Below the pieces are notes generated by a model. The model saw nothing but the letters and a program-made list of their open reading frames with translations. It was not told the origin of the DNA and did no database searches. DNA of 64,000 nucleotides from a virus: positions 1 through 64,000 of the IMG/VR virus record IMGVR_UViG_3300032304_000650. One strand, written 5' to 3'. Both the position numbers and the translations under genes were made by a program. Shown in pieces: positions 4,057 through 60,787 of the stretch (within the stretch, counting starts at the first letter, position 1; each line of letters starts with the position of its first letter).

Positions 4057-5877
4057 ATGAAATACGCAGTAACGATATTTGACAATATTAGGAATGTAAC
4101 AAATCCTATAGAGAAAGACCTGAGAGAAGTATTAATGGCCATTAGAGATGGTGCATATAAGGAGCAAGTAGAAGCTATACGAAATTGTAAAGAAGACCAC
4201 AAGATACCATCACTAAAACAAAATCTTCCATGTGTTTTATACGCTGGATTATTTAATAAGGGTATAGAAAAGATTAATGAACGAGGCGAGAAGACAATCT
4301 CTTTTAGAGATGATAAATCCCTTACACTTCATAGCGGATTTGTACCTATTGATATGGATGGTATCAGTGATATAGAGGCAAAGAAGGAGGAGTTAAAAAA
4401 GAATCCGTACATATTTGCACTATGGACATCTGCAAGTGGCAAGGGTATTCATGGTATTATTAAAATAGGTGATACCAATAAGCATGCAGAACATTATAAG
4501 GCTATATTAGATATGATTCAAGGGCTTGACCCAACAGCAAGAAACCCTTCAAGGGTGCTGTTTATGTCATACGACCCTAATATCTATATTAATAGCTCAG
4601 CTAGTATATTCTATAATATTTTAAAAGAAGAAGAGACAGCCCCTGCAAACATAAAATTCGGTGATGGATACACAGACTATAAAAAGATTGATGTAGCATC
4701 TAGAATGATTAGGCTAGCGCCAGACGGAGAGAAGCATCACATCTTATTGAAAGCTGCTCATCTTATGGGAGGGTATGTTGCTACAAAGCATATAGAATAT
4801 AATATAGCTAAGGGCATCCTAGAGCATGAAATATCTAAGAAGGATGTAGATAACATGGAGCTTGCTAAGAAGACTATTGAAGATGGACTTCGCCATGGCA
4901 TGACTATGCCTATATCTGAACTAGAAACTTCATTTAGGGAGGCCACTAGAGAGATTGGTGTAATGGAGGAGGACTTATCTTTCCTTGCATCTAATACAAG
5001 AGACGATGATTTCATATATAAATTCAGGGCTGGATTGATACCTATGGGTCTACCATTTGGATATACCGAGCTAGACGAGCATTTAAGGCTCAAGGAGGGC
5101 GAATTTTACGCTTCCCTAGCACATAGTCACATTGGTAAGACAACGGTCAATTTATGGCTTATATTCCTATCTGCGATTCATTACGATTGGAATTGGATGA
5201 TGTATATGGGAGAGAATCAATCTGCGTCTATTAAGATGAAGCTTATGGAATTCTTTATAGGCAAGAAGATTATACAGATGAATGACCACGAGCATAACGT
5301 AGCGCTTAAGTTTGTTGATGAGCATTTCTTTATTCTGTCTACGGATAATATGTATACATACGGTGAGATACTTGAGCATGCTAAAGTGCTTATGCAATAC
5401 AAGTCTCTTAAAGGTGTATTCATTGACCCGTACAATAGTTTAAAGATGGAGCTAACAGCTGCTAAGAATAAGTATATATACGACTATGAGGCATATAGCG
5501 AGATGCTAAACTTCACTAAAAAGTATAACACAACTATATTCTTATCTGTTCACACTACAACAGCTTCTCAAAGAGAAAGAGACAGCGAGGGTAATCAGAA
5601 GATGCCACACGCTGCTGATACAGAGGGAGGCGCTGCATTGTATAATAGAGTAGATTATTTTATAACACTGCATAGAAAGATTAAGTCTCAAGACGAGTGG
5701 ATGTATACGCAAGTATCTATTGATAAGGTACGTAACGGGGAGACTGGAGGCAAGCCCACTAGGACTGGAAACCCTGTAATGATTAAGATGAACAGAGGTC
5801 TTGAGTTCACGGATATCAATGGAGCATTGCCTTTTGATAGAGAAAAGTTATTAATAAAGTATAAATGTAGATTTTAG
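4057..5877 (+). CDS. Primase-helicase fusion: BT4734-type primase domain plus DnaB-like helicase
   Basis: The 606-residue protein has two parts. Residues about 1-195 resemble the BT4734/VirE N-terminal primase-like domain, with an acidic D-x-D (FVPIDMDG, D99 and D101) and SGKGIHGIIK (127-136), the arrangement of archaeo-eukaryotic-type primases. Residues about 320-600 form a RecA fold: P-loop ASLAHSHIGKTT (352-363, K361), Walker B VFIDPYN (454-460) and SVHTTTASQRERDS. The P-loop is unusual because its usual first glycine is alanine. The protein should unwind the fork and lay down primers. No phage DNA polymerase is visible, so host polymerase is probably recruited. Confidence 0.85.
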   Translation: MKYAVTIFDNIRNVTNPIEKDLREVLMAIRDGAYKEQVEAIRNCKEDHKIPSLKQNLPCVLYAGLFNKGIEKINERGEKTISFRDDKSLTLHSGFVPIDMDGISDIEAKKEELKKNPYIFALWTSASGKGIHGIIKIGDTNKHAEHYKAILDMIQGLDPTARNPSRVLFMSYDPNIYINSSASIFYNILKEEETAPANIKFGDGYTDYKKIDVASRMIRLAPDGEKHHILLKAAHLMGGYVATKHIEYNIAKGILEHEISKKDVDNMELAKKTIEDGLRHGMTMPISELETSFREATREIGVMEEDLSFLASNTRDDDFIYKFRAGLIPMGLPFGYTELDEHLRLKEGEFYASLAHSHIGKTTVNLWLIFLSAIHYDWNWMMYMGENQSASIKMKLMEFFIGKKIIQMNDHEHNVALKFVDEHFFILSTDNMYTYGEILEHAKVLMQYKSLKGVFIDPYNSLKMELTAAKNKYIYDYEAYSEMLNFTKKYNTTIFLSVHTTTASQRERDSEGNQKMPHAADTEGGAALYNRVDYFITLHRKIKSQDEWMYTQVSIDKVRNGETGGKPTRTGNPVMIKMNRGLEFTDINGALPFDREKLLIKYKCRF

Positions 5878-16179: not shown

Positions 16180-16606
16180 CTACCAAAGGTACGATAGTAG
16201 CTTCAATTTTTTCTTTACCTAATACCTTCTCAAGTAATACTGGGAAGTAGTCGTCTGTTTCAATATTGAATAACTCAGCTACATCTAACTTAGGTACTTC
16301 AATATTCTTCTCAATATTTTCTAATTCTTGAATTTTCTTGATTAACTCTTCTTGATTCTCAGGAGCAACAACGTAAGATTCACCTTCTTGCTTACCTAAT
16401 TCCTTAAAGATTTCTAATCTAGCTTCTTCGTAAGACTTAACTTCTTCAGCTACAGCCTTATTCAATTCATTGTTTAATAAATACTTAGCACGGATACTTA
16501 ACTTGTGAGATAGTACACCCTTGCTTCTTTCGCCTGTTTCTCTGTTTAATAATCGTCCGTTTAATTCTTCAAATAAAACTACGATTTCTCCTAATGTTAA
16601 CTTCAT
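16169..16606 (-). CDS. Helical protein of unknown function (DUF1617-like shape)
   Basis: The 145-residue protein is acidic and mostly helical (MKLTLGEIVVLFEELNGR at the start, SHKLSIRAKYLLNNELNK centrally). The layout resembles short phage proteins of the DUF1617 kind often found after tail genes, but this is by impression only. It directly follows the zinc-ribbon gene with a one-base gap. Confidence 0.65.
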   Translation of the reverse strand: MKLTLGEIVVLFEELNGRLLNRETGERSKGVLSHKLSIRAKYLLNNELNKAVAEEVKSYEEARLEIFKELGKQEGESYVVAPENQEELIKKIQELENIEKNIEVPKLDVAELFNIETDDYFPVLLEKVLGKEKIEATIVPLVDEN

Positions 16607-17779: not shown

Positions 17780-20212
17780 TTATGCGTTTAATAGTTGGTT
17801 AAGTTTAGTCTCTAATAACTCTATTCTTGCATTAGCATCTATTAGTTTTTGATTTAACTCTTTAGTGCTCTCTACAAATAGTCCGCTAAGTTCGCTATAA
17901 TTTACACTGTATGTATCAGTCTCTTCGTGATAATTAACAACTTCTGGGCAAACTGCAGCAGTTTCTTGAGCTATAAGACCTATATGCTTTTTATTTTCTG
18001 TATCTATAATCCAGTTGTAGTATACACCTCTTAATTGTAATACTTTATCCAATGCGCTATCTACAGTAATTATATTTTCTTTAAGTCTACCATCAGATAT
18101 GTTAGAGAATGTGTATGCCCAAGATGTAGCATCACACCATGAATCATTTGTAATTCTATGCTTACCATTAGTACAAGCTCTTACCCAGTCGTATGTTTCA
18201 GAGCCAGTTATACCTGTGCAATCATTACCACCAAAATAATATAATTCCCACTTACCTCTATCTTGCATATAGATACCTCCGTTACCACTATTCCACATAA
18301 AAAATGAACGATAGCCTGCATTATCATATGCACCATAACCAGAATAACCATTTTGACCAGTTCCATAAGTATGTACATTACCATATGAACCATATGAATC
18401 AGCAGATGTTAATCCTCTTCCACCTCCACCAAAATAAGCATGATTTGTATTTAATGTTCCTATTGCAATATCTCCATTACCATCTCTTAATACGATATTA
18501 TTACCTGCGTTTCCTGAAGTAGCATTTATAGTCGCTGAGTTTGCTTGACCTGATATAGAGCCTGCTGAATTAGCATAACCGTGAAAATGACCAGATGTAA
18601 ATCTAGCTACCCATCCTACAGCTTGTCTATGAAATCCAAATTCTCCTTCATTCATCATCAAAGTGATTCCAGTTCCACCACCAAAATGCAAACCTCTCCA
18701 TCCATTCTTTTCACCAAGTATTTGTGCAGAACCATAGCTACCATCATTGTTTGGATAAAAATGTAATCCATAATGGTTTGGAAAATAAAGTCCATAGTTA
18801 CCATTAAATTGTATCCAGTTTTGTGGAATGAAATAACCACTTGCATTTCTTGTAGGAATAGTATTAGCATCACCTCCTGTAGAAACAGAATAACCACCAA
18901 CTGTACTTGAGTTGCCTCCATTAGCTGGTGCAGAGCCAGCAGTATCTGCATACCCAGCAGCTGCTTTTGTCCAAGCTCCCCAACTACCTCCTTCTTGATA
19001 TCTTATCCAAATGTATGGATTAGTTGTATTTCTTAACCAATAAAACTGACTTGCATATTGATTAATTGTATAATCATTTCCAAGTCCTAATGTAAATCCA
19101 TAATGTTGACCTCCTTGAGGCCCATTATTACTACCTTGCATGTATCTAACCCCAAAATTTCCTACACTATTAAAGTCTTGGTAAGTGCCATGGTTTTGAC
19201 CCATGTTATTAAACAAACGATGAACATCTGTCATATTACCAATACCAACACTTGTTAAATAAGCACTGTCATTAGTAAAACTAGAAACAGCTGTTGGTCT
19301 GCCACTTACATTTGTCCATGCAACACTTCCTGTACTTTCTGAATACCTTGACCAATCTACTTTAATTCCAAAAGTACTACTACCATTCCATCCCATTAAG
19401 TTTGGATTCACTCCCCATGCATTTCCACCATCTGAAGTAGCCACAGGATTTTGTGGAGTATGTCTACTTATTGTAGTTCCATCTGGAGAAGTACCATTTG
19501 AAGCATCAAATATAGTATGACTATTACCATACTGTTTCCACATTAGTTGACCAGCTACTGCCCCATCTGTTACTCCTTTATAGTTAGTTCTTCCTGTAGA
19601 AAAAGTTGTAGAAGTAGCAGCATTACCAGTAATACTTCCAGCAGAAGTTATATATCCAGCAGGATTAGTGCTGTTATATGGAGTAAATCCTAAAGCATTT
19701 GTTACTAATGTACTTGTAATACCAGTTAGGTATGTAGAGTTATCATAAGTTATTGTAGTACCACTAGCTTTAACAAAACCTGTTCCATTTAATGTAGTTC
19801 CTGCGCTTACTGTATAACTTCTATCAGCTGATAAATCAAAAGTAGTACCATTAATTGTTATTGTTCTAGCGTTTGTTACAGGCGTAAATCCTAGTGCTGT
19901 TGTTACATCACTTGAAGTAAGTGTAACATCTCCAGTTCTTGTATTAAACGAAGAAAGACCTGCAGCTATAGTAAATGTTCTATTAGCGCTTAAATCTAAT
20001 GTTGTACCATTGATTGTTATAGTTCTAGATGTAGGTACATATGAGCTCAATGAAGATGACAATGCATAAGAACTTAAAGCTGTAGTCACATATGCTTGTG
20101 ATGCTACTAACTGATTTGTATGCATAGTAATTCCAGCAGGAACCGTTATGTGGTTTTCTGAATTGTATGCTACTATGTGAGCTAAGTGACCTAAATCTTT
20201 TGTTTTTCCCAT
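17780..20212 (-). CDS. Tail fibre with C-terminal S74 intramolecular chaperone
   Basis: The 810-residue protein is glycine-, serine-, asparagine- and threonine-rich. It contains fibre repeats such as GFTPVTNARTITINGTTFD near residue 110 and LNGTGFVKASGTTITYDN near 145, and a long receptor-binding-like region rich in aromatic residues. The last 105 residues (starting SDGRLKENI at 706) form an S74 peptidase domain, which trimerises the fibre and then cuts itself off; S706 and K711 are the likely dyad. A coiled-coil end (LIDANARIELLETKLNQLL) completes it. It probably binds the host surface. Confidence 0.85.
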   Translation of the reverse strand: MGKTKDLGHLAHIVAYNSENHITVPAGITMHTNQLVASQAYVTTALSSYALSSSLSSYVPTSRTITINGTTLDLSANRTFTIAAGLSSFNTRTGDVTLTSSDVTTALGFTPVTNARTITINGTTFDLSADRSYTVSAGTTLNGTGFVKASGTTITYDNSTYLTGITSTLVTNALGFTPYNSTNPAGYITSAGSITGNAATSTTFSTGRTNYKGVTDGAVAGQLMWKQYGNSHTIFDASNGTSPDGTTISRHTPQNPVATSDGGNAWGVNPNLMGWNGSSTFGIKVDWSRYSESTGSVAWTNVSGRPTAVSSFTNDSAYLTSVGIGNMTDVHRLFNNMGQNHGTYQDFNSVGNFGVRYMQGSNNGPQGGQHYGFTLGLGNDYTINQYASQFYWLRNTTNPYIWIRYQEGGSWGAWTKAAAGYADTAGSAPANGGNSSTVGGYSVSTGGDANTIPTRNASGYFIPQNWIQFNGNYGLYFPNHYGLHFYPNNDGSYGSAQILGEKNGWRGLHFGGGTGITLMMNEGEFGFHRQAVGWVARFTSGHFHGYANSAGSISGQANSATINATSGNAGNNIVLRDGNGDIAIGTLNTNHAYFGGGGRGLTSADSYGSYGNVHTYGTGQNGYSGYGAYDNAGYRSFFMWNSGNGGIYMQDRGKWELYYFGGNDCTGITGSETYDWVRACTNGKHRITNDSWCDATSWAYTFSNISDGRLKENIITVDSALDKVLQLRGVYYNWIIDTENKKHIGLIAQETAAVCPEVVNYHEETDTYSVNYSELSGLFVESTKELNQKLIDANARIELLETKLNQLLNA

Positions 20213-58847: not shown

Positions 58848-58855
58848 TATCTTTG
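58848..58855 (+). promoter_or_regulatory. Promoter box of the ribozyme-containing early operon
   Basis: TATCTTTG matches TAnnTTTG exactly; no TTTG lies at the normal upstream distance, but CTTTAACAAAGTTTTAAC at 58805-58822 resembles a repeated element also found upstream of the gene at 62999. The expected start is near 58863. Confidence 0.55.
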
Positions 58856-58862
58856 CAGTTTT

Positions 58863-59186
58863 ACAATGTCAACGGGGGACACCCCAACGACGCAGTTCTT
58901 TTCAAGGTGGGTCACTCTAGGTAATCATTCCTAGGTAAGCACGACCCGATATCGCGAAAGGTTAGACAATCTGACTAAGTAGCACGAAAGGATATCCGCT
59001 AGGCCAACAAGCACACCACAACAACAAACACCATCACCGCGCTGAGGGTATAAAAAGAGAGCGGGTAAGTAGCTACCACGGACATAGGTAGCGATGACCT
59101 TACAGCAACGGAATCTGATTCTAGATTAATAGAATAGACGAGCTGAGATTGTCTCAGTTGCAGTCGGTTTACTAGGACGATGGCCC
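58863..59186 (+). ncRNA. Long structured 5' leader RNA upstream of the first ribozyme
   Basis: No reading frame of note covers these 320 bases, but perfect short stems are dense. They are GGGG/CCCC near 58874-58885, an outer GGGTC/GACCC enclosing CTAGG/CCTAG at about 58909-58948, GATATC pairs with inner TTAG/CTAA, GCTACC/GGTAGC near 59073-59092, and CTGAGA-TTG-TCTCAG at 59142-59156. The stretch is also less AT-rich than the rest. I infer a folded leader that the downstream hammerhead would release. No known family is recognised; candidates are a regulatory leader or a separate phage ncRNA. Confidence 0.55.
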
Positions 59187-59241
59187 AATGTACGCGGTTA
59201 AAAAAGCACCGCGCTGACGAGTCGCAGAACGACGAAACATT
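59187..59241 (+). ncRNA. Hammerhead ribozyme, type III
   Basis: All core positions fit. Stem III pairs AATGT (59187-59191) with ACATT (59237-59241). Stem I pairs CGCGGT (59193-59198) with ACCGCG (59208-59213) around a nine-base A-rich loop. The core CTGACGA is at 59214-59220. Stem II pairs GTCG (59221-59224) with CGAC (59230-59233) around CAGAA. GAA is at 59234-59236. The cleavage triplet is GTA (59190-59192), so cutting is expected between 59192 and 59193. Stem III is open at its end, which defines type III. It would cut the early transcript 71 bases before the ATG at 59264. Confidence 0.9.
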
Positions 59242-59263
59242 AACAAAAAAAACTATATGTATT

Positions 59264-59497
59264 ATGGAAAGGAATTACAGCGTATCAATTAACACTACAA
59301 GCCATTTTGAACTAGAGTACAAGCAAAGAGCTGTAGCTTTTGAGTTCAAGACTTTTGATGAAGCCTATGAAAAGTACAAGGAATTAGTCGCAGATGAATC
59401 AGCGCACGTATCTACCTTGAACAGCGTGAGGTCTAGCGTGACAATCACCATGGCGCACGAGGACAGAATCCAATACAGAGTAAACATATACAACTAA
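59264..59497 (+). CDS. Small early protein, unrecognised, 71 bases downstream of the ribozyme cut
   Basis: I take the ATG at 59264 (after ATGTATT) as the start. A longer in-frame version from 59180 would read through the ribozyme and is rejected. The 77-residue product is acidic and mixed alpha/beta (SVSINTTSHFELEYKQRAVA, then FKTFDEAYEKYKELVADESA) with a beta end. The fold may be a small ferredoxin-like binder, but no family is recognised. It is the first cistron of the RNA predicted to be cut out by the two hammerheads. Confidence 0.75.
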   Translation: MERNYSVSINTTSHFELEYKQRAVAFEFKTFDEAYEKYKELVADESAHVSTLNSVRSSVTITMAHEDRIQYRVNIYN

Positions 59498-59508
59498 AAT
59501 TTAATACC

Positions 59509-59751
59509 ATGGAACAATTACTAAGCAACAAGTATGAGCAACTATGCGACACGCTGTCAATAGTTGAGGAATTCGTAGGCAGTCTTGCAAGCGAACGCAC
59601 CCAAATGGATATAGCTGTTAAACTATGTCCATACGTAGACAATTTAAAAAAGCTAGTGAGAGACAATCCTAGTATTGTACGTGAGACCATTGCGCACGAC
59701 TACATAGGGTTAAGAGACGAAGACGAGGATTTTTTACCAAGACTAGCATAA
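59509..59751 (+). CDS. Small helical early protein, unrecognised
   Basis: The 80-residue protein is acidic and helical (EQLLSNKYEQLCDTLSIVEE, then DIAVKLCPYVDNLKKLVRDN) and ends in an aspartate/glutamate-rich tail (RDEDEDFLPRLA). It is 12 bases downstream of its neighbour and its TAA ends one base before the type I hammerhead. Regulatory proteins of early phage operons often look like this, but nothing specific can be claimed. Confidence 0.75.
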   Translation: MEQLLSNKYEQLCDTLSIVEEFVGSLASERTQMDIAVKLCPYVDNLKKLVRDNPSIVRETIAHDYIGLRDEDEDFLPRLA

Positions 59752-59752
59752 A

Positions 59753-59808
59753 GGTTAACTGACGAGCTGTTTATCAGCGAAATGCCCGCCCCCACGGGTA
59801 TCTTAACC
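59753..59808 (+). ncRNA. Hammerhead ribozyme, type I
   Basis: Stem I pairs GGTTAA (59753-59758) with TTAACC (59803-59808) and is open at its end. The core CTGACGA is at 59759-59765. Stem II pairs GCTG (59766-59769) with CAGC (59775-59778) around TTTAT. GAA is at 59779-59781. Stem III pairs ATGCCCG (59782-59788) with CGGGTAT (59795-59801, one G-U) around a six-base loop. The cleavage base is C59802, so the cut lies between 59802 and 59803. Every conserved position is met. It would leave the DUF932-like mRNA with a 22-base 5' leader. Confidence 0.95.
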
Positions 59809-59824
59809 AAAAAAAATAAATGTT

Positions 59825-60748
59825 ATGAGAAATCAAACAGCAACAAAAGTATTAGACCAAGAGTCTAGATTCAGCGCAAAAACTACTGATTCAGCAGAGC
59901 GCAAAATTGACACAATCTTAGAGAACAGCAGACAAGACAACGTCTTTGTTGAATCCTCAATTGTGAGTTTATCTGAAATCACAGGTATGGCCACACGTAA
60001 AGGATTAGAGCAGGCTGTTATCTGCGAGAACGAAATCGTTAACGTGGTATCATCTAGCTATGGTCACTTGGATAATCGTAAATTCTACTACGAGGCAGAG
60101 TCTAAGTTGATTGACGCTGACATCTACTACAAACAGCGCTCAGTGAACAAAGATAACCGCTCATTCGCTGTAGACTATGTCCTAGCTGACGATAGATACA
60201 AGATTGAGATTAAAGGTGAACAAGACATCTTACGTCCTATGTTACGATTCGTTAATAGCTACGATGGTAGCTGTAAGACTAGCGGTTCAATCGGATTTTG
60301 GCGCAAGGTATGTGACAATGGTTTACATGTAGCTAATTTCAACATCGGGTTTAGTGTTAAGCACCGCGGTAATATTGCTGAGGTAGTTATGCCTAAGCTA
60401 GACGAAATTGTAGGTCAGTTCATGGACAACGAATTCTTTACACTTAAGCGTAAGTTTGAGGTGCTTGCAGAGCGTCCCGTTACTAATGTAGAAGACTACG
60501 TAAAAGCTACAGCTAAGACCCTAGGGTTATTCAAATACGAGGCATCAGATAAGAATCCCGAGCCTAGTGCAAACGCACGTTTTGTTTTTGACGTAATCAA
60601 CCGCGAGTCTAAGCTATTGAATACACGTCCTAACCAATGGATTGTATACAACGCATTCAACGAGCTGTTACACGGCAAGTTAAAGAAGACGTTTGACCAA
60701 CAAAAGAATCTTGACGAGCAATTGTTTGAGACAATCTATGCGGGTTAA
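59825..60748 (+). CDS. DUF932-like protein
   Basis: This 307-residue protein has the DUF932 features seen in phage/plasmid-like proteins: a central LRFVNSYDGSCKTSGSIGFW followed by RKVCDNGLHVANFNIGFS (about 138-175), then a helical region (TLKRKFEVLAERPVTNVEDY) and an aromatic-rich C-terminal portion (NRESKLLNTRPNQWIVYNAF). The family is widespread in plasmids and phages and its role is unknown. The ATG follows the type I ribozyme by 16 bases, and a strong terminator follows the stop. The ribozyme cut would separate its mRNA from the two upstream cistrons. Confidence 0.75.
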   Translation: MRNQTATKVLDQESRFSAKTTDSAERKIDTILENSRQDNVFVESSIVSLSEITGMATRKGLEQAVICENEIVNVVSSSYGHLDNRKFYYEAESKLIDADIYYKQRSVNKDNRSFAVDYVLADDRYKIEIKGEQDILRPMLRFVNSYDGSCKTSGSIGFWRKVCDNGLHVANFNIGFSVKHRGNIAEVVMPKLDEIVGQFMDNEFFTLKRKFEVLAERPVTNVEDYVKATAKTLGLFKYEASDKNPEPSANARFVFDVINRESKLLNTRPNQWIVYNAFNELLHGKLKKTFDQQKNLDEQLFETIYAG

Positions 60749-60760
60749 GATATCACCACG

Positions 60761-60787
60761 GGAGGGGCGCAATGCTCCTCCTTTTTT
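60761..60787 (+). terminator. Rho-independent terminator after the DUF932-like gene
   Basis: GGAGGGGC at 60761-60768 pairs with GCTCCTCC at 60774-60781 (8 bp, one G-U) with a five-base loop, followed by six T (60782-60787). Confidence 0.85.

Follow-up and report, generated by a model that had tools for sequence, protein, structure and literature searches.

Ordered type III and type I hammerhead ribozymes between phage genes as candidate dicers of early polycistronic mRNA

The first 64,000 nucleotides (nt) of the IMG/VR virus record IMGVR_UViG_3300032304_000650 (hereafter the window; the full phage record is 66.75 kb long) harbour a type III and a type I hammerhead ribozyme, which bracket two short genes and precede the gene for a DUF932 protein. 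Ribozymes of both types are conserved in many phage loci, where they follow one another in a near-strict order and are set at characteristic distances from stop and start codons. Based on these features, it is likely that an early polycistronic mRNA is diced by its hammerheads, which would yield a leader RNA plus mRNAs whose ends are defined. The parts of the unit in the window, as predicted from the sequence, are as follows.

58848–58855, + strand: promoter-like TATCTTTG, a Bacteroidota-type -7 element (TAnnTTTG); the probable transcription start lies shortly 3' of it
58862–59192, + strand: probable structured, non-coding leader RNA; start approximate, 3' end set by the type III cut
59187–59241, + strand: type III hammerhead, predicted cut 59192/59193; found with a descriptor scanner, RF00008 and model R2
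59264–59497, + strand: open reading frame 1 (ORF1), 77 residues, first cistron of the 610-nt piece
59509–59751, + strand: ORF2, 80 residues, second cistron; its stop codon ends 1 nt 5' of the type I ribozyme
59753–59808, + strand: type I hammerhead, predicted cut 59802/59803; found with a descriptor scanner and model R1
59825–60748, + strand: gene for a DUF932 protein of 307 residues (PF06067, E 9.7e-16; PHROG 21518, E 1.4e-105)
60760–60782, + strand: intrinsic terminator-like hairpin with a T run (10 pairs, 6 of them G-C, TTTTTATATT tail), the end of the unit

The two hammerheads are the sole matches across the 66.75-kb record. An earlier note on this DNA had placed a type III hammerhead upstream and a type I hammerhead downstream of a bicistronic RNA; both ribozymes are complete and lie where it had put them on the + strand, and the cut sites and the 610-nt length of the piece between them are exact. 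Its division of the unit into a leader, a 610-nt bicistron and a DUF932 mRNA is likewise supported by the sequence, with the terminator coming right after the DUF932 gene and the same layout recurring in many phages.

In the type III hammerhead, stem III is formed by AATGT/ACATT, stem I by CGCGGT/ACCGCG and stem II by GTCG/CGAC, around a CTGACGA + GAAA core, with CAGAA as loop II and A59192 as H17. It has the CUGANGA...GAAA core of its class, the U16.1-A15.1 pair, an H17 other than G and an open stem III. The full core, the three stems and the short loop II are shared with RF00008 (Hammerhead_3), but with its CAGAA loop II and 4-bp stem II it falls short of typical RF00008 scores, at 42.7 bits (E 2.4e-7) versus a gathering cut-off of 48.5, so that a default Rfam scan is silent. 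The shortfall appears to be a matter of calibration for divergent members rather than of a missing structural feature. With a covariance model built from relatives (R2), the type III ribozyme scores 63.2 bits, the window sequence being part of the training set. In the near-twin locus L001, a G-C pair of its stem II is replaced by A-U, which represents a compensatory change (59224/59230).

The type I hammerhead consists of stem I GGTTAA/TTAACC, stem II GCTG/CAGC and stem III ATGCCCG/CGGGTAT, with a CTGACGA + GAAA core and a predicted cut after C59802. The core and the three stems are present, stem I is open and H17 is not G. It matches no Rfam family, even at E 10, which is a question of library sensitivity and not of a structural feature of the family. 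The corresponding model built from relatives (R1) yields 57.7 bits and E 9.5e-12, again with the window sequence in the training set.

Dinucleotide-shuffled versions of the window yielded 0.01 (100 shuffles) and 0 (60 shuffles) hammerheads per 64 kb with two descriptor scanners. Among relatives, all stems covary in both type III and type I. The stem pairing of 99–100% in these relatives is partly built in, as members were chosen for paired stems. For an unbiased test of pairing, we left six bases of stem II free in a type III pattern. It collected 80 unique sites, 79 of which form all three free stem II pairs (5% expected), and the full type III ribozyme is completed at 77 of the 80.

We then analysed the order and spacing of 290 unique ribozymes in the fetched loci, 199 of which are type I, start codons being assigned to the closest ATG followed by an open frame. 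The recurrent phage layout comprises a promoter, a structured non-coding leader, a type III hammerhead, one or several short genes and at least one type I hammerhead that is exactly intergenic. Adjacent pairs on the same strand are type III followed by type I in 45 cases, type I followed by type I in 69, two successive type III in nine and type I followed by type III in two; counted by independent locus clusters, the III-then-I order is found in 12 and the reverse in one. The type I cut precedes the next ATG by a median of 22 nt (middle half, 20–24 nt), and the predicted 5' end of the cut DUF932 mRNA is also 22 nt before the ATG. The upstream stop codon frequently overlaps the type I ribozyme, as the TAA of GGTTAA (46 copies), as a TAG at the first G (28) or as the TGA of the CTGA core (23). 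Type III ribozymes sit well downstream of the previous stop (median 273 nt), and their cut is a median of ~61 nt before the first ATG. Stem I of type I is GGTTAA/TTAACC in 171 of the 199 unique copies, partly owing to the choice of pattern, and in 28 of 46 copies from loci fetched without that pattern. An A flanks stem I in 192 and 194 of the 199 copies on its two sides, and the 5-nt loop II reads TNANT, which together suggest a tertiary contact. A pseudoknot between loop II of type I and its downstream or upstream flank was considered and rejected, with no excess of pairing over permuted pairs.

Several variants of the type I ribozyme and its surroundings were also found. In 30 of the 199 unique copies (in L005–L008 and other loci), an extra nucleotide, often U, lies between A9 and stem II, as in the core-edge variant CTGATGATGG...CCGAAA. 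A conserved internal loop (TTCACGA/G) is present in stem III of type I copies in L005 (3090–3157) and L006 (1001–1068 and 2856–2924), and it is possible that this loop is a ligand- or protein-binding insert. In L005–L008, a conserved short hairpin, TGTGGAGTCACCACA, is inserted in the post-cut leader, after the type I ribozyme and 5' of the DUF932 start (e.g., L008 3363–3379); it is absent from the window, and a comparable hairpin-like element is found downstream of a further type I copy of L008 (~4361–4376).

The region upstream of type III ribozymes has features of its own. In the window, the leader is GC-richer and non-coding and folds moderately better than shuffled sequence (z -2.06), with a long-range closing helix; its alignment with that of L004 shows compensatory differences by eye, and it has no Rfam match at E 10. 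In a separate and larger collection of type III leaders, two-sided changes among ten sequences are seen at 12 of the 19 pairs of a consensus structure. TAnnTTTG, which we take to be the Bacteroidota -7 element, occurs between -450 and -60 in 40 of 79 type III leaders, compared with 14.2 in shuffles (maximum 21). The leader fold, the compensatory changes and the enrichment of TAnnTTTG indicate that the RNA upstream is probably structured and non-coding, with a 3' end defined by the type III ribozyme as well. Several families of apparently unnamed structured non-coding RNAs were observed between an early promoter-like element and a type III ribozyme (in the window and in loci such as L163, L196 and L212).

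With the DUF932 protein as a query, 16 viral loci were retrieved. A type I ribozyme directly precedes the DUF932 gene in seven of the eight closest loci, or eight of nine counting the window, and stems II and III differ between them. L007 and L008 have five type I copies each, L008 having one type III in addition; overall, the window has two hammerheads, and the richest locus has seven. Scans of viral contigs collected at least 120 stretches with the GGTTAA type I pattern and 90 with the CAGAA type III pattern. By comparison, ~85,000 genomes (bacterial chromosomes) gave 14 stretches only, several of which have no ribozymes, indicating that the system is essentially viral. In a contig of a Candidatus Taylorbacteria metagenome-assembled genome (L227), hammerheads of both types occur as in phages; it is probably a phage contig binned with that genome. 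BLAST searches with single ribozymes were too weak to be informative, and we found no cultured phage whose DNA is nearly identical to the window or resembles its leader.

The ribozymes persist while the genes between them vary. The genes that follow ribozymes are short (median 74 residues) and mostly unrelated to each other, with 129 clusters among 193 for type I and 63 among 90 for type III. DUF932 was rejected as a constant partner; Flavobacterium psychrophilum phages with a 55% match to the DUF932 protein have no hammerhead nearby. Between the window and L001, ORF1 is of equal length and third codon positions account for 26 of its 45 changes, and ORF2 is identical at 77 of 80 residues. ORF1 has sub-threshold matches only in Pfam and none in PHROG, and the family matches of ORF2 in both databases are all sub-threshold. 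Elsewhere, the window encodes a terminase, a tail fibre, an Erf-like annealing protein and a primase/helicase. About 0.9 kb of non-coding DNA, 3' of divergent genes, precedes the + strand unit, and terminator-like sites in the region number three, versus 2.1 expected by chance.

Both ribozymes are also present in cultured phages. An Elemovirus region that harbours them is matched by 68 records of Flavobacterium phages, whose host is BAL314. In elemoE_6-9C (NC_055854), the type III ribozyme lies at 18098–18152 and the type I ribozyme at 16304–16361, both on the minus strand. Among the Elemovirus isolates, the type I ribozyme has GACT/AGTC as its stem II in one and GGTT/AACC in others.

We propose the following scheme. 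The unit, from 58.86 to 60.79 kb, would be transcribed as a single early polycistronic RNA. The type III cut at 59192/59193 would release the structured leader RNA with a 2',3'-cyclic-phosphate 3' end, and the type I cut at 59802/59803 would separate the 610-nt two-gene mRNA from the DUF932 mRNA. The catalytic fold is predicted to stay on the downstream RNA for type III and on the upstream RNA for type I, so that the III-then-I order would leave a folded ribozyme remnant on both ends of the middle mRNA; no other order would flank the first coding piece with remnants on its two sides. Ribozyme-cut ends generally resist 5'-monophosphate-dependent decay and decay by 3' exonucleases. With its 5'-hydroxyl and cyclic-phosphate termini and its remnants, the middle mRNA should resist exonucleases and 5'-monophosphate-dependent decay. 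The DUF932 mRNA would begin with only 22 nt of unstructured, A-rich leader; in other loci, later pieces would similarly start with a short A-rich leader, and end with a ribozyme fold where another type I follows. We infer from the sequences both that cutting takes place in infected cells and that it serves to provide every cistron with separate ends and with a stability and translation of its own. Different lifetimes for the three parts, as proposed in the earlier note, would be a reasonable consequence of the putative cutting.

Several points weigh against this scheme. Many of the loci are related, so that the counts given above overstate independence, and the scan patterns fix part of each sequence. 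In L002 (4940–5005), the core of the type I ribozyme before DUF932 is lost and the gene is kept; a short C/G-rich hairpin replaces the core there, and the TTAACC end and the A-rich leader are retained. In the Elemovirus isolate elemoF_6-3D (L242, NC_055853.1), on the minus strand before AAACTTTAAAAACAATACTAAGATG, stem II of the type I ribozyme is mismatched. This copy looks like a recombinant of two intact alleles of sister isolates and is predicted to be a natural low-activity control. The loss of the core in L002 and the broken stem II of elemoF_6-3D indicate that cutting is dispensable at some sites. Lastly, we infer, rather than observe, the protection of the ends and the changed lifetimes.

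The predicted cuts might be subject to translation. A terminating ribosome would cover the type I ribozyme, which would then cut only as long as the upstream gene is not translated, and this would come in addition to dicing and not as an alternative to it. The presence of a stop codon inside or at the edge of most type I copies, and 1 nt upstream of that of the window, is consistent with such a switch; however, tight gene packing alone would yield the identical geometry, and we regard the switch as possible but doubtful.

Most type I copies share the GGUUAA/UUAACC stem I, which raises the question of whether pieces released between two of them might be ligated by the ribozymes themselves into circles or gene-skipping joints. 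The 5' end of 51 of 59 such pieces pairs 6/6 with the type I core at their own 3' end, and the sharing of stem I holds with and without pattern bias (171/199 and 28/46 copies, as above). Nevertheless, the flanking A residues and the TNANT loop II indicate that the conservation of stem I may instead reflect tertiary docking, ligation is usually unfavourable for small hammerheads, and the process is inapplicable to the window with its single type I copy. We thus consider self-ligation rather unlikely. A broader version treats the ribozymes as intercistronic punctuation: type III would mature a structured regulatory RNA and open the coding part, and each cistron would end in a type I copy whose stem I is interchangeable; through this shared stem I, the ribozymes could rejoin or circularise the pieces, giving a re-assorting set of phage mRNAs. 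Taken as a whole, this appears quite improbable.

As for the 610-nt piece itself, the earlier note had speculated that 59193–59802 might be joined into a circle. We found no support for this idea, as the junction re-forms neither ribozyme and no phage ligase was detected in the records searched. Closure by the ribozymes requires that a piece can pair, through its 5' end, with the stem I strand of the core at its own 3' end. Joining 59802 to 59193 gives only 2/6 stem I pairs, and none of the 39 pieces between a type III and a type I ribozyme reaches 6/6; self-circularisation was rejected on this basis. RtcB is absent from the six phage records searched, and there are no members of PF09414 (RNA_ligase) in the record of the window. 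Circularisation after both cuts by an RtcB-type ligase of the host is very improbable. In a plausible host family, that of a Flavobacterium genome, RtcB was found in 27 of the 120 genomes sampled, and the majority lack it. For phage hammerhead clusters, spliced and circular RNA products were sought in 2011, and none were reported (Perreault et al., PMC3088659).

Finally, the idea that the motifs merely resemble hammerheads, through decay or by chance, and are devoid of activity is scarcely credible, since, although neither ribozyme of the window reaches the curated Rfam thresholds, the cores are invariant and the stems covary, compensatory changes distinguish near-identical phages (the window and L001; the elemoE and elemoC isolates), and shuffled sequence yields essentially no hammerheads.

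Transcript dicing by phage hammerheads has been proposed before. Hammerhead clusters in prophages, and the idea that transcripts are split by them, go back to 2011 (PMC3088659); such clusters cut in vitro, and one set did so in E. coli too (PMC3088659). The clusters of that study, namely the ardA triple array of Agrobacterium and those of Azorhizobium and Clostridium scindens, similarly consist of several hammerheads of different types around single genes or short gene blocks in phage DNA, with variable gene identities and a proposed splitting of long transcripts; as in these transcript-processing clusters, several hammerheads on the same strand bound genes in our loci. Unlike in the former clusters (PMC3088659), the III-then-I order is near-strict here, type I ribozymes run from stop to start and leave a leader of 22 nt, type III is preceded by a structured leader RNA, and the arrangement is found again across numerous phage contigs as well as in phages grown in culture. 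Retrozymes and viroid-like circular RNAs (PMC7761336, PMC4918200) also involve hammerhead-released pieces with 5'-hydroxyl and cyclic-phosphate ends; however, their hammerheads are repeats of the same type, so that the circle junction re-forms a ribozyme, whereas the piece of the window is protein-coding and flanked by ribozymes of different types, whose 2/6 pairing at the junction re-forms none. In glmS and other ribozyme-controlled mRNAs, self-cutting of a bacterial-type mRNA likewise alters its fate, but the cuts in the window fall between cistrons.

The role of hammerheads in bacteria and phages has been described as an open question (PMC6155905). We did not find the ordered grammar stated in the accessible hammerhead literature, although other papers on bacterial hammerheads may describe it in part; this grammar, the stop/start geometry, the leader RNAs and a culturable system, that of Elemovirus, go beyond that literature. 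As the Elemovirus phages of Flavobacterium sp. BAL314 can be cultured and naturally provide intact and broken versions of the ribozymes, they make the splitting of transcripts directly testable. The ordered layout and the fixed spacing from stop to ribozyme to start, kept as the genes change, point to a definite job for these ribozymes, the splitting of early transcripts.
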